Source: a bacterium | GTDB taxonomy: Bacteria > Fibrobacterota > Chitinivibrionia > Chitinivibrionales > Chitinivibrionaceae | Assembly: GCA_020048285.1 (NCBI GenBank) | Contig: JAIFMU010000049.1 | Span: 1 to 36,513 of the forward strand | Length of the DNA: 36,513 nt | Direction of reading: 5' to 3' | Shown: in pieces, positions 67 through 31,712 of the stretch | Position numbering within the stretch: position 1 is the first letter of the stretch | Layout: every line of letters begins with the position of its first letter | Made by a program: the position numbers and the translations under genes | Notes under the pieces: generated by a model | What the model was told of the DNA's origin: nothing | The model's database searches: none | Seen by the model: only the letters and a program-made list of their open reading frames with translations

Positions 67-324
67 TCATATTTGAATGCCGGAGTAATAGCTCTCTTTC
101 CCTCTCACTCTCACAATCTCGCCGCCCGATTCGGTAAAATCAACGAGAATCCGATAACCTCCCTACGCTACGGCGATTGTTTTTCACACGCGGGTATAAC
201 CAATCTCCTCTTTTTTGCTGATTTTATCCGATACTCTGAATGCCTTTTCCAGCCAGCCGACAGGTTTGATCCATAAATTGAATAAGTTTGTGCTATCTAC
301 AGTTAAACAGTTACTATCTTTATA
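67..324 (-). pseudogene. possible degraded reading frame at window edge
   Basis: On the minus strand one frame stays protein-like from about 324 down to 67 but is interrupted by an in-frame TGA and TAG. Its pieces read like ordinary protein (for example IKPVGWLEKAFRVSDKISKK, then RILVDFTESGGEIVRVR, ending GIQI before TGA). No start codon with a ribosome-binding site was found, and the upstream part runs into the repeat array. I do not recognise a family. It may be a decayed gene or simply chance open sequence. The overlapping plus-strand frames have poor composition and no usable start. Confidence 0.2.
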
Positions 325-501
325 TCACGATTTACTATCTTCAATTCACGATGATATGTCTTTTTTCTTCGATATGCTATCTTTACATTTCTGTTGCCTA
401 TCTTTGAGCCTCTGATCACTATCTTTATAATAAGTTATCTAAAAGAGAGTAGAAGATAGCATATCGATAAATAAAGATAGTTAATCAATAGAAAAAGATA
501 T
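290..501. repeat. 21-bp iteron-like array (7 direct + 3 inverted units)
   Basis: The hexamer CTATCT begins at 293, 314, 335, 377, 398 and 419, with a degenerate ATGTCT at 356. Every step is exactly 21 bp. Its reverse complement AGATAG follows at 454 and 475, with AGATAT at 496, again 21 bp apart, so the two sets face each other. Several units extend to a longer consensus, roughly TTACTATCTTtatatcacGAT; the two units at 311-352 are nearly identical. Two helical turns per unit would place all sites on one DNA face. The flank 481-535 is very AT-rich. This architecture is known from plasmid and phage replication origins (iterons plus AT-rich unwinding region), partition centromeres and multi-site operators. 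Which applies here is unknown. Confidence 0.85.
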
Positions 502-604
502 ATTATATATATTATTAGATATTTACGTTTGATACATAGATTGTATACTGATAAATAGAGATAACTCATACTGCAGCATTGCCGTGGGGAAAAAGGAAGT
601 GGAA

Positions 605-1249
605 ATGGAAAAACGGGTACAGCTCAGCGAATCGTTCGGTTCATTTATCACCAAGGCGAAACGAATTGAAGCGTATATGCGCGAAGATTGGCTGGATCTG
701 GCAGAGAACACTGCGGACGAGACCATGGTTGAGCGATTGGCGGCGGCGATCGCTGAAACGGAACAGGCGGTGTCAACCCATCGCGAAGAGTATGCGGTGG
801 AGAGTGACGCGCAACTGAATAATCGGCAGGCGGTGGCGGATCTTCGTACCACACTTCGCGAAGTGAAGGCCCGCTTTGCCCTTGCAAAACCGACCGATCT
901 CTTTCATCTTGGGCAGCCGCGGAGTTATCAGTCATATCTGAAAAAATATCCGCTCAATGCCAAGCTCTACACGGTCGCTCAGGGCGTTGAAGAGTTGACA
1001 ATGATCCTTCAGAAACTGTCCCCGCGGCCCAAATTCTGCGCCGATGACATACTAGACGGCTATATGGCGGTGGTGGAGCGGTATCGAAAAGGTTTAGTTC
1101 CCCTTCAGCTTGAAAAGAGTGAACAGCCGATTCTTCGGCTTAAGCGGGATCAGAAAATCCGGAAGCTTCGGTCACTGGTTCGGATCGGCAAGGAGCTGGG
1201 GCGATTCACTTATCGCGATAATCCGGTGAAACTTCCGCGGTATCGGTAA
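605..1249 (+). CDS. hypothetical helical protein downstream of the iteron array
   Basis: A 214-residue soluble protein without signal peptide or membrane segment. I do not recognise the family. The first half (about residues 1-110) is rich in Glu, Ala, Arg and Lys and probably forms long helices. The C-terminal 50 residues are strongly basic (KRDQKIRKLRSLVRIGKELGR), which could suit nucleic-acid contact, but no helix-turn-helix or replication-initiator motif is visible. ATG at 605 is chosen because AAGGAAG lies about 7 bases upstream; an in-frame GTG at 584 has no such site. It starts about 100 bp after the 21-bp repeat array, so it is the nearest candidate partner of those sites. A convergent hairpin follows it. 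Confidence 0.7.
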   Translation: MEKRVQLSESFGSFITKAKRIEAYMREDWLDLAENTADETMVERLAAAIAETEQAVSTHREEYAVESDAQLNNRQAVADLRTTLREVKARFALAKPTDLFHLGQPRSYQSYLKKYPLNAKLYTVAQGVEELTMILQKLSPRPKFCADDILDGYMAVVERYRKGLVPLQLEKSEQPILRLKRDQKIRKLRSLVRIGKELGRFTYRDNPVKLPRYR

Positions 1250-8488: not shown

Positions 8489-8803
8489 ATGGCTATCGGG
8501 ACAGTAACATCAGCAAACGCTGCTCGCCTCTACAGTGTAAATAAAGCAGCAGAGAAAAAACCGGAAATTGCAAAAAGTGCTTTTTCTAAACAGGCAGATA
8601 AAGTAGAGCTTTCTGCAGAAAACACAGAAAAAGCGGATCGTGCAAAATTGGCTCTTGCCATTGCAACTGCACCTGAAATCCGTATAGAATTGGTTGAAGA
8701 GCTGAAAGCGAAAATCAGATCCAATGATTATCCAATTGAACAAAAAATGGATGAAGCAATTCGTCGCATGATTCGAGATGACCATTTCAATTCAGTTGCA
8801 TAA
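8489..8803 (+). CDS. flgM: FlgM-like anti-sigma-28 factor
   Basis: A 104-residue protein with the FlgM layout: a low-complexity, probably disordered N-terminal half (AARLYSVNKAAEKKPE), then DKVELSAE, then the sigma-binding helices ELVEELKAKIRSNDYPIEQKMDEAIRRMIRD. FlgM holds sigma-28 inactive until the flagellar hook is complete and FlgM is exported. The usual phrase RxxKVxxLKxxIxxGxYxVdxxxIAxxm is recognisable as IRIELVEELKAKIRSNDYPIEQKMDEAIRRM. ATG 8489 has GGGAGG 5 bases upstream; the in-frame GTG at 8483 overlaps that site. No flagellar gene is adjacent. A candidate sigma-28 promoter precedes it and a strong terminator follows. Confidence 0.8.
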   Translation: MAIGTVTSANAARLYSVNKAAEKKPEIAKSAFSKQADKVELSAENTEKADRAKLALAIATAPEIRIELVEELKAKIRSNDYPIEQKMDEAIRRMIRDDHFNSVA

Positions 8804-8824
8804 CAGAGAACTCCATTGTAACAC

Positions 8825-8855
8825 AAAAAGCTATCTCATAATGAGGTAGCTTTTT
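8825..8855 (+). terminator. intrinsic terminator after flgM-like gene
   Basis: AAAAAGCTATCTCA pairs with TGAGGTAGCTTTTT (one G-U pair), a two-base AA loop region and a T-rich tail, 21 bp after the stop codon. Confidence 0.85.
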
Positions 8856-8924
8856 CTTTCTGTGAAACTCAAAACAAATCCACTTATTCTTCAGAAGGCC
8901 GCAACATTGAGAGCCGTTTAAGTA

Positions 8925-8962
8925 TAAATGGGATCTCTTCTCAGTCGAAAAAATCCCATTTA
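8925..8962. terminator. inverted repeat at the end of the oxidoreductase gene
   Basis: TAAATGGGAT (8925-8934) and ATCCCATTTA (8953-8962) form a perfect 10-bp stem with an 18-nt loop, 20 bp after the minus-strand stop at 8982. No U-run follows, so termination by this hairpin is uncertain. Confidence 0.4.
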
Positions 8963-8981
8963 TTTCCAAATGAAGAGACTG

Positions 8982-11462
8982 TTAGATAAACAGATTATAC
9001 GAAGCATCTGCCGCTTCGCCGAGATAAGCTCCAACACCGCCAAATTCAACACCATCGATAAGTTCTTCAGGTTTGATCCCCATAAGATCCATACTCATTG
9101 CACAAGCAACAAAGCGAATTCCACTTTTGCGCGCTTCAGCCATTAATTCAGGTAGGGACATAACATTCTTCTTTTTCATAATACCCTGCATCATTTTGGT
9201 GCCCATTCCACCCATATGCATTTTTGAAAGCACCGTGTGTTGAGCGCCGCGAGGCATCATAAATCCGAACATCTTTTCTACGAGATTTTTCTGGACTTTT
9301 ACTTTTGCATCTTTGCGAAGCATGTTCAATCCCCAGAACGTAAAGAACAGAACGATTTCATCGCCCATAGAAGCGGCTCCGTTGGCAATGATAAAAGTGG
9401 CCATCATCTTATCAAAATCATTGCTGAACACAACCATGGTCTTTTTCTTGTTGTTCACCGTGAGAACTGCACCCTGTTCTGTTCCTTTGCGAACAGTGGC
9501 AATGTGAATTTTCCCTTCAGAGCGAACAGAAAGCAAGGTGTTTCCCGTGTTGCGACACCACGCGGGAATGTCGTGCACAAAGCCCGGATCATTACTGCTC
9601 ACTTTGATCACTTCGCCATTTTTGACTTCGTTCATTCCATCGCGCAGTTTAAGAATTGGGCCGGGACACTGAAGTCCACAGGCATCAATATCGAGAATTG
9701 CCGCCACATCCAATGGTGACGAACGATGTTCATCGATAACTGGTGAACCTTCCGGTCGAACACAAACGCCACCAGCACAAACTTCACCGGGGATTCGTTT
9801 CAGCGAATTTTCATTTTTCATATTGATCATTGAATAGGTATTAAATCCACCGGCGAGATTGCGAACGCGGAATCCGTTCTGTTCGAGTATGCGCGCAGCC
9901 ACATAGCCACGTTGTGCAACTCCACAGTACACGATAATCTCTTTCGAACGATCAAGCTCATCCATGCGACGACGAATTTCGCTGTGAGGCATAAGAACCG
10001 CACCGTCGAGATAGCCGACAATCTGCTCTTCTTCGGTTCGAACATCAACGAGTTGCATCGTTTTAGGATCATACGAAGAATCTAGCTCTTCCGTGAAAAT
10101 TTGTTTCATTTTCCCCGTGAGAATATTTTCTGCGGTAAATCCAATCATGTTCACGGGATCCTTGGCGTTTCCGAAAGGAGGCGCATAAGCCAGCTCGAGA
10201 TCGATAAGATCCTGAACGGCCATCCCTTGACGAATAGCTACGGCAAGCACATCAATACGACGGTCAACACCATCTTGTCCCATGATCTGCGCACCGAGGA
10301 TTTTTCCATCTTCAGGCGAGAAAAGCGTTTTGATGCTCATCATAGAGGCACCTGGGTAGTAACCGGCATGGTTGTAGTAATGTCCATAGGTTTTTATATA
10401 GGAAATCCCCATGCGCTTGGCTGTTTTTTCGTTGATCCCTGTGGTGGCTGCGGTGAGATTAAAAATTTTGCAGATCGATGTGCCTTGAGTTTTTTTGTAC
10501 GAAGAGTTTCCTCCGTGAATGTTGTCAGCGGCAATACGCCCCTGACGGTTTGCCGGACCCGCAAGTGGAATCATGACCTGAGACCCTGTAACAAAATCGG
10601 TGACCTGAACAGCGTCACCCACGGCAAACACAGACTCTGCCGATGTTTGCATCTGGTCGTTCACGATAATTGCGCCACGTTCTGAAAGTTGTACACCACA
10701 GCCTTTGAGGAATCCCGTGTCAGGAAGCACACCGGCTGCAAAAATAACGATATCGCACTGAATTTCTTGACCATTGGTAAGCTTAACCAACATAGAATTC
10801 GCATTTTCGATAAATTCAGAAGCACCGGCTGAGGTGATAACATCCACCCCGTTGAGAATCAATTCTCGTTCTGCGTACATAGACATATCTTTGTCAGCAG
10901 GAGCGAAAACCTGATCTGCAAATTCTACGAGTGTAACTTCTTTGTGGATATGACGCATGTTTTCAGCTACTTCGAGACCGATAAAACCACCGCCCACGAC
11001 GACGACTTTTTTGACCGTATCGCGAACAACTTCAGCTTTAATTTTATCCATATCGGGAATCGAACGAAGAGTATAAATCCGCTTGCTCTCAATTCCTGGA
11101 ATATTTGGGCGAAGTGGGACAGCTCCCGGCGCGAGAAGGAGATAGTCATAGGTCATCTCGTGATTACCAGATACATCTTTGTAGTATACTTTTTTCTGTG
11201 CAGTGTCAACACTCGTCACTTCACTTCGGATGCGAACATCAACAGCCTGGACACCTTTGAAACTTTCAGGAGTTTGAAGAATCAAACGGGAACGTTCTTT
11301 GATTTCTCCGCCAATATAGTAGGGTAAACCACAATTTGCAAAAGAGATAAACTCTCCCCGCTCAAACATGACAATTTCAGCAGATTCATCGAGGCGACGC
11401 ATACGAGCTGCAAAACTCGCACCTCCAGCAACTCCTCCAACAATTACAATTTTTTTACCCAT
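8982..11462 (-). CDS. CoA-disulfide reductase-like flavoprotein fused to rhodanese, TusA and DsrE domains
   Basis: An 826-residue fusion of four units. Residues 1-450 are a pyridine-nucleotide disulfide oxidoreductase: FAD site VIVGGVAGGASFAAR, active Cys C44 in FANCGLPYYIGG, NAD site VVVVGGGFIGLEVAE and VGDAV. Residues about 465-545 are a rhodanese with C513 in VYCGVAQRGY. Residues about 589-660 are TusA-like with the CPGP motif (C599). Residues about 670-826 are DsrE/DsrF-like (VVFSNDFDKMMATFIIANGAASMG). C44 places it with CoA/polysulfide reductases that use NAD(P)H; the other domains carry persulfide sulfur. A cytoplasmic role in polysulfide or CoA-disulfide reduction with sulfur relay is inferred. 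ATG 11462 has AGGA 8 bases upstream; the ATG at 11469-11471 overlaps that site. It lies downstream of trxA on the same strand but with its own promoter and a terminator between. Confidence 0.9.
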   Translation of the reverse strand: MGKKIVIVGGVAGGASFAARMRRLDESAEIVMFERGEFISFANCGLPYYIGGEIKERSRLILQTPESFKGVQAVDVRIRSEVTSVDTAQKKVYYKDVSGNHEMTYDYLLLAPGAVPLRPNIPGIESKRIYTLRSIPDMDKIKAEVVRDTVKKVVVVGGGFIGLEVAENMRHIHKEVTLVEFADQVFAPADKDMSMYAERELILNGVDVITSAGASEFIENANSMLVKLTNGQEIQCDIVIFAAGVLPDTGFLKGCGVQLSERGAIIVNDQMQTSAESVFAVGDAVQVTDFVTGSQVMIPLAGPANRQGRIAADNIHGGNSSYKKTQGTSICKIFNLTAATTGINEKTAKRMGISYIKTYGHYYNHAGYYPGASMMSIKTLFSPEDGKILGAQIMGQDGVDRRIDVLAVAIRQGMAVQDLIDLELAYAPPFGNAKDPVNMIGFTAENILTGKMKQIFTEELDSSYDPKTMQLVDVRTEEEQIVGYLDGAVLMPHSEIRRRMDELDRSKEIIVYCGVAQRGYVAARILEQNGFRVRNLAGGFNTYSMINMKNENSLKRIPGEVCAGGVCVRPEGSPVIDEHRSSPLDVAAILDIDACGLQCPGPILKLRDGMNEVKNGEVIKVSSNDPGFVHDIPAWCRNTGNTLLSVRSEGKIHIATVRKGTEQGAVLTVNNKKKTMVVFSNDFDKMMATFIIANGAASMGDEIVLFFTFWGLNMLRKDAKVKVQKNLVEKMFGFMMPRGAQHTVLSKMHMGGMGTKMMQGIMKKKNVMSLPELMAEARKSGIRFVACAMSMDLMGIKPEELIDGVEFGGVGAYLGEAADASYNLFI

Positions 11463-27365: not shown

Positions 27366-27415
27366 TTATAGATAAACGATCTCCATTTTCAATGATACCA
27401 ACAAGGAGTTTTATA

Positions 27416-28963
27416 ATGTTCAGAATACTCATAACTATCTTGTTTTTGCTTACCGTAGGCTGTAAAAAAGAGTCACTTACAATTCTTTCTGGTTCCGAAA
27501 ACGAATCGCTCAAACCACTCTTAGAAGAGTTCGGGCGCACGCACGGTGCCTCGATTGAACTGAAAACAATGGGATCCGTTGACATAATGAGGCGCCTTCA
27601 AAATGATTCCCTTTCAGAATACGATGCAATCTGGCCAGCCGCTTCGATGTGGTTGGCGCTGGGGGATGCTCACAAGCGAGTCTCTCAATCCAAATCAATT
27701 ATGACCTCACCGGTGGTGTTTGGGATCAAAAAAAGCCTTGCTCAAAAGTTGGGATTTGTCGGCCGCGATGTAACTGTCGCAGAAATTCTTGCGGCGGTGC
27801 AACGCGGTGACCTCAGATTTACCATGACTTCTGCAACCCAATCGAACTCCGGTGCCATGGCGTATCTCGGATTTCTTTCTGCCTTTGCAGAAAATCCGCA
27901 GACCCTTTCACAAGAACAACTGCAGGACACAGTGTTGCTGAACCGCATGACCGCTCTTCTTTCGGGGATAAATCGTTCTTCCGGAAGTTCCGGTTGGTTG
28001 AAAGAGCTATTTTTGAAAGGTGATTACGACGCCATGGTCAACTACGAATCACTCATAATCGAAACGAATCACGTGCGAATCGGTCGCGGTGAAGAGCCGT
28101 TGTATATCGTCTATCCAAGGGATGGACTCTCCATTTCCGACTCTCCTCTGGGATCTTTGACACAGGATGAAAAAAAGCGAGAACTGTTCAACGAACTGCA
28201 AGAATGGCTCCTTTCTACGCCAATTCAAAAGCGAATTGCCGCACAAGGTCGTCGCACAGGTCTTGGAGCTTCGGCATCGACTGAATTTATGAGTTCTGTC
28301 GATACGGCATGGGGAATAAGTGCAAATCGCATTTTAGCCCCCGTCCCACTCCCTGCGGCAGCGCAAATTCTGGAAGCGCTCAATCTCTACCAAACGCGAC
28401 TGCGCAAACCGTCTCTCACCGTTTTCTGTCTTGATTTTTCTGGAAGTATGGAGGGAACCGGAAGTGCGCAGTTAAAAGAAGCGATGAATCTCCTTCTCGA
28501 TGCACAGCGTTCAAAAGAACATTTGATTCAACCGGGATACCGTGATATTACTGTTATCATTCCCTTTTCAAATGAACTTCAGCCGTACAAAATTGTCGAA
28601 GGGAACAGCGATTCGGCCATGGCAGAACTGAACCGTTTTGTCGAATCTCTTGAACCAAGCGGAGGCACGGACATTTACTCCCCGGCAATACAGGCTCTAT
28701 CGATTATCGAAAGTTATTCTGAAACCGAGTACATTCCCGCAGTCGTGCTCATGACAGACGGAGAATCCAACACGGGCGCAAACCAAGATGCACTTCGGTT
28801 GGCCTTGGGAAAAGTAAATCGCGATATCCCCATTTTTTCAATCTCCTTTGGCGATGCATCTCAGGATCAATTGGATGAAATCGCCACCATGAGCCGTGCA
28901 GCGGTTTTCAAAGGTCAGGACGATTTGGTTGGTGCATTCCGAAAGGTAAAGGGGTATAATTAA
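27416..28963 (+). CDS. solute-binding/VWA fusion lipoprotein
   Basis: A 515-residue putative lipoprotein. Signal ILITILFLLTVGC with C16 as the likely lipidated residue. Residues about 20-300 resemble a type-II periplasmic binding fold (SBP_bac_11-like): LTILSGSENESLKPLLEEF, YDAIWPAASMWLALG, TMTSATQSNSGAMAYLGFLSAF. Residues about 330-510 are a VWA domain with MIDAS D340-x-S342-x-S344 (LDFSGSMEGTG) and VVLMTDGESNTG. ATG 27416 has AAGGAG 7 bases upstream. First gene of a four-gene operon; its stop overlaps the next start (TAATG). The binding half is paralogous to the protein two genes downstream. Ligand and purpose are unknown; VWA could dock a partner in a metal-dependent way. Confidence 0.88.
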   Translation: MFRILITILFLLTVGCKKESLTILSGSENESLKPLLEEFGRTHGASIELKTMGSVDIMRRLQNDSLSEYDAIWPAASMWLALGDAHKRVSQSKSIMTSPVVFGIKKSLAQKLGFVGRDVTVAEILAAVQRGDLRFTMTSATQSNSGAMAYLGFLSAFAENPQTLSQEQLQDTVLLNRMTALLSGINRSSGSSGWLKELFLKGDYDAMVNYESLIIETNHVRIGRGEEPLYIVYPRDGLSISDSPLGSLTQDEKKRELFNELQEWLLSTPIQKRIAAQGRRTGLGASASTEFMSSVDTAWGISANRILAPVPLPAAAQILEALNLYQTRLRKPSLTVFCLDFSGSMEGTGSAQLKEAMNLLLDAQRSKEHLIQPGYRDITVIIPFSNELQPYKIVEGNSDSAMAELNRFVESLEPSGGTDIYSPAIQALSIIESYSETEYIPAVVLMTDGESNTGANQDALRLALGKVNRDIPIFSISFGDASQDQLDEIATMSRAAVFKGQDDLVGAFRKVKGYN

Positions 28964-29553
28964 TGGCCCCACTACTTGGCGGGCTTCTCGGTGGAGCGCT
29001 ATTCTTAGTCTTTTTATTGTTCTTTAACACCTCTATTCCCATTGCACTTTTTGCTTGTGGCGGCGGATTTGTGGCAGGAATTCTTATGGCACCGCGTCGG
29101 TCACTGGCCATTTCTGTCGAAGGGGTTGATCACGAAGCGCTCAAAGAAGCGATCGCCACCGCGGGCAGAAAAGTGGTTCGCCTTGGTGAACTGGCAAAAG
29201 GTATCGAACGAGTAGAGGTTCGCACGAAAGCGCAACAATTAGCTAAAACAGCCGAAGGGATAATCGCAGATCTGCAGGATGAACCGACCGAGGTAAAACG
29301 GGCGCGGCAATTTCTCAACTATTATTTAGATGCCACTGTTCAAATTTTGCAACAGTATCAAGAAATCAGCAGTAAGGGAATCAAAACTCCCGCCATTACA
29401 GAGGCGTTATACAAGGTTGAATCGCTTCTCGATTCGGTGGTGGATGCCTTTGAAAAACAGCGAGCTCACTTGCTCACCGATGATATGTTCAGCCTTGACA
29501 CTGAAATTAAACTTCTTGAATCAACTTTAAAAACGGAGAGCTTTAACCGATGA
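28963..29553 (+). CDS. two-TM XpaC-like protein
   Basis: A 196-residue protein. Residues about 1-50 form two close membrane helices (GGLLGGALFLVFLLFF; IALFACGGGFVAGILMAP). The rest is a cytoplasmic helical domain (EALKEAIATAGRKVVRLGELAKGIE, then ARQFLNYYLDATVQILQQYQEI and VVDAFEKQRAHLLTDDMFSLDTEIKLLESTLKTE). This layout and its pairing with TelA match the XpaC family (5-bromo-4-chloroindolyl phosphate hydrolysis family), whose biochemical role is unclear. Start and stop overlap both neighbours (TAATG and ATGA), so translation is probably coupled. The XpaC assignment rests on layout and context more than on a signature motif. Confidence 0.7.
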   Translation: MAPLLGGLLGGALFLVFLLFFNTSIPIALFACGGGFVAGILMAPRRSLAISVEGVDHEALKEAIATAGRKVVRLGELAKGIERVEVRTKAQQLAKTAEGIIADLQDEPTEVKRARQFLNYYLDATVQILQQYQEISSKGIKTPAITEALYKVESLLDSVVDAFEKQRAHLLTDDMFSLDTEIKLLESTLKTESFNR

Positions 29554-30620
29554 AGCGAACATTACTTGGTCTATTAGTACTACTTATATGCATTGTCGCC
29601 GGAATCATGTTCAAAATGAAACAGTCGATTCTTCCTGCTGAAACCGTTTCAGGGATGATCGGTGGAGAAAAAAGTCAGTTTCTCGAAGACTCGCTGATTG
29701 TAAAAATTCTTCGCAATCGTTATGGATTGATTGTGGATGCGCGCAAAGAGGGCTCAATCGAACTCGTTCAAGGCGATCCAAAAGGCAAAGATTTTTTGTG
29801 GCCCTCTTCGCAGGTCGCTCTTGAAATTTTCAAAGAACGGCACGCGGGAGTTTCATTTAAAACTGACCAAATTTTCTCTTCGCCGCTAGTACTGTTCAGT
29901 TGGGATTTGGTGACCAAAGCGCTAGTGGCCCAAAAATATGCTCAAGAACGTAATGGCGTCTGGTATATCACTGATCTCACCGGTTTGATCCAAGCGGTTG
30001 TGGATGGCAAAAAGTGGAGTGATCTCGGTGTTTCAGAACTCTATGGGCGTGTGAGTCTTATCAGTACCGACCCGAATCGATCCAATTCAGGATCACTCTT
30101 TGCCGGTTTGATCGCCGCGCTTTTGGCAGGAGATCAACTGAATGATTCAACTCTCGCCGAAGTGACCCCAGCAGTAAAGCAGTATTTCGATGGTCTCGGG
30201 TTCATGGAAAGTTCTTCCAGCGATCTTTTCAACCAGTACCTCAGCACGGGAGTGGGCGCAAAACCAATCATCGCCGGTTATGAAAACCAAATTATCGAAT
30301 ATTCATTAGCACACCCGGATCAATGGCCTGTGGTAAAAGAGAAAGTACGTTTATTGTACCCTGAACCAACGGTCTGGAGTGCTCACCCATTTATCGCCCT
30401 TACACCCAAAGCAGAAAAACTCATGAAAGCGCTCAAAGATCCTGAAATTCAAAAAATCGCCTGGGAACGCCATGGGTTCCGCACTGATCTTGTGGCAACC
30501 ACGGCCGCCAGTGAAGTGAATGGGCGCGTTATCGGCATAGCGCCTTCAATAAGCAAAGTCATTCCGCTTCCGGCACCGCATATTTTAAACAATCTTTTAG
30601 GCTCCCTGAAAAACAATTAA
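29550..30620 (+). CDS. membrane-anchored solute-binding-like protein, paralogue of the VWA fusion
   Basis: A 356-residue protein with an N-terminal membrane helix (LLGLLVLLICIVAGIMF) and no lipobox, so it is probably anchored and faces outward. The body resembles the binding half of the first gene: FLWPSSQVALEIF parallels YDAIWPAASMWLAL; ISTDPNRSNSGSLFAGLIAALLAG parallels the SNSGAM stretch; AGYENQIIEYSL parallels the YESLIIE stretch; and WERHGFRTDL parallels the QGRRTGL stretch. So the two genes carry duplicated binding domains. No VWA domain here. ATG overlaps the upstream stop by four bases (ATGA). Ligand unknown. Confidence 0.82.
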   Translation: MKRTLLGLLVLLICIVAGIMFKMKQSILPAETVSGMIGGEKSQFLEDSLIVKILRNRYGLIVDARKEGSIELVQGDPKGKDFLWPSSQVALEIFKERHAGVSFKTDQIFSSPLVLFSWDLVTKALVAQKYAQERNGVWYITDLTGLIQAVVDGKKWSDLGVSELYGRVSLISTDPNRSNSGSLFAGLIAALLAGDQLNDSTLAEVTPAVKQYFDGLGFMESSSSDLFNQYLSTGVGAKPIIAGYENQIIEYSLAHPDQWPVVKEKVRLLYPEPTVWSAHPFIALTPKAEKLMKALKDPEIQKIAWERHGFRTDLVATTAASEVNGRVIGIAPSISKVIPLPAPHILNNLLGSLKNN

Positions 30621-30638
30621 CTATCAACGGAGAAATAC

Positions 30639-31712
30639 ATGGAATCAAGCAAACTCGTACCTGCGATTGTACTTACGGATTTATCTGCCACTGAACAGGA
30701 ACGCATCTCAACCATTAGAAACTCCGTGGCACTCACCGATTCTCAATCGGTCACAACCTATGGATTGTCGGCCCAGTCAGGAATCGCCGAATTTTCAGAA
30801 TCAATTCTGGCGGAAATCGTAAACAAAGATGCGGGATTTGTAGGAACGGCACTTTCGTCACTCTTGACGACAGTGAAAGATCTCGATGTAGATAGCCTCC
30901 AAAGTGGCGGTGCGCTCTCAAAAATTCCTGTAATCGGTAAGATCTTTAGCGCCGCGAGAAGTTTTATTCAACGCTATGAAAAACTTTCGGTTCAGATTGA
31001 ACGGATCACTGGCGAACTTGAAAAAGCGCGTATGAATATCCTTCGCGATATCACTATGCTCGATGGCTTGTTCCAAAAGAATTCACTCTCTCTGCGCGAA
31101 CTGGATCTCTTTATTGTGGCCGGCCAAGAACTTTTGGCCGAACTTGAAACTGTTCAGATTCCCGCGATCGAAGCCAAGGCCACGGAAAGTGGTGATCCGC
31201 GCGATGCTCAAGCATTGCAAGATGCTCGCCAGTTTGCCAGCCGTTTCGAGAAAAAACTCCACGACCTCAAACTTTCACGCATGGTTTCGATTCAGATGAA
31301 CCCGCAAATCCGACTGATTCAAAACAACAATCAACTTCTTGTGGAAAAAATTCAAACGTCGATACTCACCACGATTCCACTTTGGAAAGGTCAGATTGTT
31401 ATCGCCATTGCACTGTTTCGCCAGAAAAAAGCGGTGGATTTACAGCGTGAAGTGACAGACACGACAAACGAACTTCTTATGAAAAATGCAGAAATGCTTA
31501 AGGATAGTTCGATTCAGGTTGCGCGGGAATCGGAACGGGGAATTGTGGACATGGAAACACTTCGCAAGGTCAATGGAGATTTGATTGCCACTATCGAGGA
31601 GACCTTAAAAATCCAGAGCGAAGGTCGGCAAAAACGCCAAATCGCTGAAGTAGAACTGAAAAAACTGGAAAGCGATCTCAAACAGAAACTTATTGGCGCA
31701 ACAAACCGCTAA
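30639..31712 (+). CDS. TelA-family toxic-anion-resistance protein
   Basis: A 357-residue, mostly helical, soluble protein of the TelA/KlaA family: SKIPVIGKIFSAARSFIQRYEKLSVQIERI, LEKARMNILRDITMLDGLFQKN, LIVAGQELLAELE-like and the Arg/Gln-rich C-terminal stretch SIQMNPQIRLIQNNNQLLVEKIQ, then LWKGQIVIAIALFRQKKAV. These are the conserved blocks of the family. TelA was named for plasmid tellurite resistance and is often next to XpaC, as here; the mechanism is not established. ATG 30639 has GGAG upstream. It is the last gene of the operon and is followed by a terminator. Confidence 0.92.
   Translation: MESSKLVPAIVLTDLSATEQERISTIRNSVALTDSQSVTTYGLSAQSGIAEFSESILAEIVNKDAGFVGTALSSLLTTVKDLDVDSLQSGGALSKIPVIGKIFSAARSFIQRYEKLSVQIERITGELEKARMNILRDITMLDGLFQKNSLSLRELDLFIVAGQELLAELETVQIPAIEAKATESGDPRDAQALQDARQFASRFEKKLHDLKLSRMVSIQMNPQIRLIQNNNQLLVEKIQTSILTTIPLWKGQIVIAIALFRQKKAVDLQREVTDTTNELLMKNAEMLKDSSIQVARESERGIVDMETLRKVNGDLIATIEETLKIQSEGRQKRQIAEVELKKLESDLKQKLIGATNR

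Follow-up and report, generated by a model that had tools for sequence, protein, structure and literature searches.

The DNA analysed here, a window of 36,513 nucleotides, is the complete contig C249 of G000, a draft bacterial genome of 3.4 Mb in 272 contigs that is about 70% complete. At positions 290-501 it carries CTATCT repeats in two opposed arms, raising the question of whether they form a coding repeat, a replication origin, a partition site, an operator or an array of another kind. The direct arm (293-425, plus strand) consists of seven CTATCTT cores at a 21-bp step, starting at 293 (CTATCTA), 314, 335, 356 (degenerate, ATGTCTT), 377, 398 and 419 and separated by 14-bp spacers of near-random sequence. 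The strong part of the inverted arm (453-501, minus strand) follows the same step with AAGATAG at 453-459 and 474-480 and AAGATAT at 495-501, and continues weakly on the same lattice at 516-564 (minus strand; TAGATAT 516-522, TAGATTG 537-543, GAGATAA 558-564). A further weak inverted unit, AAGTTAT (432-438, minus strand; 5/7 match), lies in phase between the arms and may be there by chance. At period 21 the seven direct units, compared over six columns, score 40/42; first-order Markov simulation gave at most 32 for the whole window (200 runs), and simulation of the local AT-rich stretch at most 34 (20,000 runs). The three strong inverted units score 20/21 and the six inverted units combined 35/42, each value being reached in 0 of 5,000 simulations. 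All other periods between 10 and 44 reach at most 34 in the window, the highest being 42, a multiple of 21. The array is thus confirmed as a genuine 21-bp lattice, with the seven direct starts and the three inverted cores (AGATAG at 454, 475 and 496) exactly where the preliminary description had placed them, and with a weak extension to 564.

Since a 21-bp period can also be read as heptads, we asked whether the array is translated. No ORF of at least 80 amino acids spans 290-501, and stop codons fall within this stretch or at its edges in all six frames, so the window array is not a coding repeat; coding heptads were ruled out on these grounds. The seven core columns have a pairwise identity of 0.88, whereas for the 14 columns of the spacers it is 0.36, close to the 0.31 that composition alone predicts. 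A conserved core with free spacers resembles a set of binding sites, whereas a young tandem duplication would have kept its spacers alike, and the retention of cores amid degenerate spacers, here and in several other arrays, argues for selection on the cores rather than recent copying. The DNA-level role proposed earlier is thereby supported. The preliminary description had further suggested tracing the consensus through this and related genomes. In the draft genome, the CTATCTT array occurs once, apart from a two-copy site, while the relatives hold 21-bp arrays built on other cores. The two-copy site (G000:C116:188-215, locus L166) is a CTATCTT pair 21 bp apart, with the ATG of a lipoprotein-like ORF (243-950) following after 28 bp; the pair may be a further target of the presumed array-binding protein, or a chance occurrence. 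Elsewhere in the window, the minus strand of 1-290, from the contig end to the array, reads in translation as a possible, stop-broken remnant of a RelE-like toxin frame, and positions 27392-31712 hold a four-gene block, named from sequence, comprising a pair of solute-binding-like proteins, of which one includes a von Willebrand A-like region, together with a small membrane protein and a TelA-like protein.

When 168 genomes of the phylum were searched with looser criteria, further arrays with a 21-bp step and different cores came to light. The build of the window array, a row of cores followed by a row of inverted cores with degenerate spacers, recurs at G022:C59 (L228), at G022:C21, C31, C53 and C22, and at G025:C49. 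Period 21 is the commonest tandem-array period in 320 kb of the window's genome. In 568 kb of sample and control sequence, strong lattices (a score of 31/36 or more) form six clusters at period 21 and are nearly absent at the other periods from 13 to 33. Many arrays are near-perfect tandem repeats (L161, L329, L339). Two-copy patterns in the relatives and three-copy patterns in viral contigs were scattered, with reversed-pattern controls in the relatives of the same order, and were discarded; a search of array DNA against plasmids gave no support either, and a constant 32-bp gap between arms, seen in G022 and G025, fails in L265 and is not general. Several contigs of these draft genomes stop inside or just before a 21-bp array, indicating that such arrays break assemblies. 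The repeat unit CATTGTCATGACGGGGTGAAT and its variants are found at L173 (13925-14009), L165 (8601-8691) and L335 (3740-3900); this unit constitutes a dispersed array, for it occupies contig ends in C5 and C199, which may be neighbours across it, and also adjoins the C218 family gene. In G022, a non-coding element with a long near-perfect arm and a degenerate inverted arm occupies four places (L161, L162, L226, L227), and two copies of the dispersed element have a common right end near ATAAGCACATCCTGT. The perfect arrays of L160, L161, L172 and L173 yield spurious heptad frames (RNIGQTV, NFSGLVP, FDVAVSW, CNDTKRR), which automatic annotation may call proteins.

Two of the G022 arrays adjoin paralogues of an unnamed protein, and these were the starting point of a family. 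A profile of four such proteins (A2) detected relatives in 11 genomes, and at most of these loci a 21-bp array adjoins the gene. The association also holds from the DNA side: at two loci whose arrays were known before their genes, from a DNA pattern in G001:C551 and from a sequence sample in G000:C130, a family gene ends about 70 bp before the array (E-values of 7e-26 and 5e-20, respectively). With a wider profile (A7), 13 members were detected in the window's genome, on 13 contigs other than C249, at least 15 in each of two relatives and 12 in another. The family occupies about 80 gene places, spread over about 20 genomes of a single order; A7 matches outside the order (E of about 1e-3 to 1e-2, in frames of 719-743 aa) are regarded as chance. 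Arrays were called at a score of at least 25/30 and a period of 20-22, within 500 bp 3' or 400 bp 5' of the gene, using a threshold that we set from simulations. By this measure an array lies beside 41 of the 67 family genes with enough flank, compared with 7 of 315 control ORFs (Fisher P = 5e-30), and beside 37 of 61 once the four array-discovered loci (six genes, four positive) are set aside. The remaining 26 of the 67 have no array at the threshold used; some of these misses are tandem gene pairs with one common array or flanks cut by contig ends, and others are real. In G000, all members with a usable 3' or 5' flank have an array, by score or by eye. This family of helical proteins has no match in viral contigs, PDB (by sequence), PADLOC, PHROGs or Pfam. 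Several array-linked proteins align with NCBIfam model NF052641 along the greater part of the model (best 34.5 bits, E 1.6e-8), every match being far under the curated cut-off of 80 bits, and this 'PQLLE family' appears, from the alignments, to be a distant relation.

Does the gene next to the window array belong to this family? ORF 605-1249 (plus strand; alternative GTG start at 584) encodes a 214-aa protein, predicted to be all-helical, whose basic C-terminus carries a net charge of +12 over the last 54 residues. Compared with an unselected 46-member family profile, it aligns in register over residues 9-214 with an hhalign score of 34.7 (E 8e-5), the best of 513 decoys (313 real ORFs and 200 shuffles) reaching 20.9. 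HMMER scores are marginal: two sub-profiles give 8.7-11.3 bits and others 0.9-5.4. Neither the early four-protein profile nor a 24-sequence profile separates the ORF from decoys. An 8-sequence sub-profile did so but was picked post hoc, and the assignment uses the decoy-calibrated 46-member profile instead. The C-terminus, LKRDQKIR...FTYRDNP, aligns with that of the family, for example LKRDQIRTF...IYKDD in G001; relative to the family, the protein is shorter, with an early end and a basic C-terminus. From these comparisons, ORF 605-1249 is very probably a divergent fourteenth member in its genome. The link between the array and this ORF, suggested earlier from their proximity, is thus strengthened by the score of the ORF against a family whose genes adjoin 21-bp arrays. 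Direct sequence searches found no homologue of the ORF in GTDB contigs, 41 relatives or plasmids, so the family could be reached only via the arrays, and no match to NF052641 was listed at E<=10. A single-sequence AlphaFold2 model (pLDDT 39.6) was too poor for use.

The preliminary description had proposed that the layout fits a replication origin, a partition site or a multi-site operator. An origin or partition site of a replicon would account for the iteron-like look of the array, the AT-rich stretch alongside it and the neighbouring gene for a basic protein. However, the 13 further family loci on 13 other contigs of the draft chromosome, and the at least 15 in each of two relatives, are too many per genome to support a single origin or centromere. 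In addition, the family was found on none of the 72,556 plasmids and 50,697 phages searched, ORF 605-1249 matches no Rep family in Pfam, NCBIfam or PHROGs, and the gene neighbourhood is an ordinary chromosomal one. We therefore retain the multi-site protein-binding part of that proposal and regard an origin or partition function as highly improbable.

The usual order of the module is gene, terminator-like hairpin and array, with the array 10-360 bp past the gene and a step of 21 bp, sometimes 20 or 22. At about 20 of 32 loci, gene and array are separated by a hairpin of at least six pairs followed by a T-run, so that the array falls outside the transcript of the gene itself. Inverted arms are present at about a quarter of the loci. 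Arrays 5' of the gene are a minority, found at G000:C251, at G027:C45, C60 and C28, and in the window, which has its array (293-564) close to the gene (from 605) but not in the frequent, non-universal 3' position. A type III toxin-antitoxin-like system, in which a tandem-repeat RNA transcribed from the array would bind the protein, could also pair a gene with an adjacent tandem array across a terminator, as seen at many loci, and the window array, taken as RNA, folds better than shuffled sequences (z -3.6). But most arrays lie 3', and the window's 5' array precedes its gene without a terminator, since no terminator-like site was found in 1-1400. Folding is inconsistent over the class (z -4.1 to +2.0), the spacers of the window array are near random and inverted arms recur, making this explanation quite unlikely. 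The terminators ahead of many arrays, together with the inverted arms and the inconsistent folding, point to a DNA rather than an RNA ligand.

Each locus has its private core, conserved over 6-8 bp, with a few cores in common: TGTTCC/GGAACA at G022:C21, G022:C59 and G025:C15, TCAGG in G006 and G012, and CTAACGGACG at G000:C184 and C211. Among close paralogues, array cores change faster than proteins; the L332 and L335 proteins are 80% identical, whereas their arrays differ (CTAACGGACG versus CTTTGTCAGAACGGGG). Such turnover would be expected of a selfish, satellite-like module, whose protein promotes amplification and spread of the array with little regulation, while cores drift and orphans disperse. 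The many near-perfect tandem arrays, the dispersal of one array in G022 (C21, C31, C53, C22) and the recurrence of the CATTGTCATGACGGGGTGAAT unit at two other G000 contig ends and beside the C218 gene are in line with this idea. It is nevertheless unlikely in our view, because the window array and several others retain their cores amid degenerate spacers, implying selection, and because no recombinase or transposase domain was recognised in the family. Orphan arrays with no family gene do exist (L172, L173, L187, L160). The one in L187 (G000:C199:13000-32999; 8716-8860), with core CTGATT and a 21-bp step, has an elongation-factor-G-like gene on one side and, on the other, a small XRE-type helix-turn-helix gene (8892-9176).

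Some of the dispersed G022 arrays have a common end, which could also suggest a multi-repeat transposon end of the IS21, Tn7 or Mu-like type, persisting as a solo or miniature element remnant; multi-site ends are typical of this transposase class, and IS21 direct repeats lie about 23 bp apart (PMC10122671). Against this, IS21 ends usually comprise two repeats rather than the 7-25 counted here, no IS21 transposase (IstA) domain was found in G000, G001 or G025, and most IstB-profile matches in these genomes are as long as DnaA-like or other AAA+ proteins (the G000 frames are 421 and 483 aa). Moreover, nothing is encoded between the arms of the window array, and the arrays adjoin a quite different gene family. 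We give a transposon end very little chance. Taken together, an origin, a partition site, a transposon end and a type III toxin-antitoxin system all fit worse than a protein-bound DNA array.

The best reading of the sequence evidence is that the array is a row of sites read as DNA and probably bound by the adjacently encoded protein. The window array and ORF 605-1249 would then be one copy of a repeated chromosomal module made of a gene and a row of cores. Because 21 bp corresponds to two turns of B-DNA, this step would place all cores of one arm on the same DNA face, and proteins sitting there side by side would suit cooperative assembly. The helical, basic-tailed protein would thus bind its own cores cooperatively along one face and build a nucleoprotein assembly, an explanation that we consider reasonably probable in its entirety, with binding, cooperativity and consequence being inferred. 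The recurrence of inverted arms at several loci speaks for oriented binding sites. Promoter-like hexamers (TTTACG/TATACT, spacer 16; 522-549, plus strand) lie within the weak final part of the window's inverted arm, the count of such matches being no higher than expected by chance, and autoregulation is the simplest local consequence: where an upstream array reaches the promoter region, binding would repress or tune the array's own gene. A multi-site operator, as proposed in the preliminary description, may apply to 5'-array loci such as this one. Simple repression of the promoter does not extend to linked arrays lying 3' of the gene, which form the majority; these would need another role, such as looping or local chromosome organisation. 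The orphan arrays, the 26 family genes with no array at the threshold used, the differing cores among close paralogues and the remote relationship of ORF 605-1249 to the family count against the binding interpretation.

We found no description of the array-gene module in the open-licence literature, although an earlier account may exist elsewhere. As the preliminary description had indicated in matching the layout to no described system, the module appears to be undescribed so far. We give about an even chance to a broader proposal, namely that these loci constitute a new chromosomal protein-DNA class which, in parts of one bacterial order, has at least 10 loci in a genome. Each helical paralogue and its private array on a strict two-turn lattice would form a centromere-like pair, with cores turning over faster than proteins. 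Candidate cellular roles are chromosome organisation, conflict or defence, and self-propagation. A linked gene family and repeat architecture with no described system, at about 80 gene places in some 20 genomes, is rare, and since each locus has its own core, these loci offer a natural experiment on the possible co-evolution of a DNA-binding protein with its sites. In practical terms, 21-bp arrays account for some assembly breaks and seemingly coding heptad 'ORFs' in these genomes.

How does the module compare with known systems? Plasmid iterons are direct repeats spaced by about two helical turns and lying next to the Rep gene, and an inverted partner site can autorepress. The arrays share with them two-turn direct repeats adjoining the gene of a presumed cognate protein, but are chromosomal, occur at up to 15 or more loci per genome, lie mostly 3' of the gene, have a locus-specific 6-8-bp core and come with no recognised Rep-like fold. 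LytTR regulators such as AgrA and ComE bind direct repeat sites at a similar spacing of about 21 bp, normally as one promoter pair. A LytTR-type operator was considered for this reason and rejected, as the protein adjacent to the window array has no LytTR domain and the family matches no Pfam domain. With NF052641 the family has alignments only below the cut-off, and no array is known to be linked to that model. Type III systems such as ToxIN have the order promoter, 5' repeat array, terminator and toxin gene (PMC8860590). They resemble many of our loci in setting a small protein gene beside a tandem-repeat array with a terminator between; the mostly 3' arrays, the missing terminator in the window, the near-random spacers, the inverted arms and the lack of a toxin family match set the module apart. 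IS21 elements encode IstA/IstB and usually have two direct repeats per end (PMC10122671). The oriented direct repeats about two turns apart, in two mutually inverted arms, are comparable, as opposed to the 21-bp step, the 7-25 repeats and the failure to find IstA/IstB. Finally, the TAACTGA heptamers of marine Beggiatoaceae are one genome-wide motif, mostly upstream of the start codons of unrelated genes (PMC4679880). They too recur between genes, as directly repeated copies of a 7-bp motif at many loci of a genome; by contrast, the arrays described here have a core of their own at each locus and a protein family linked to them.
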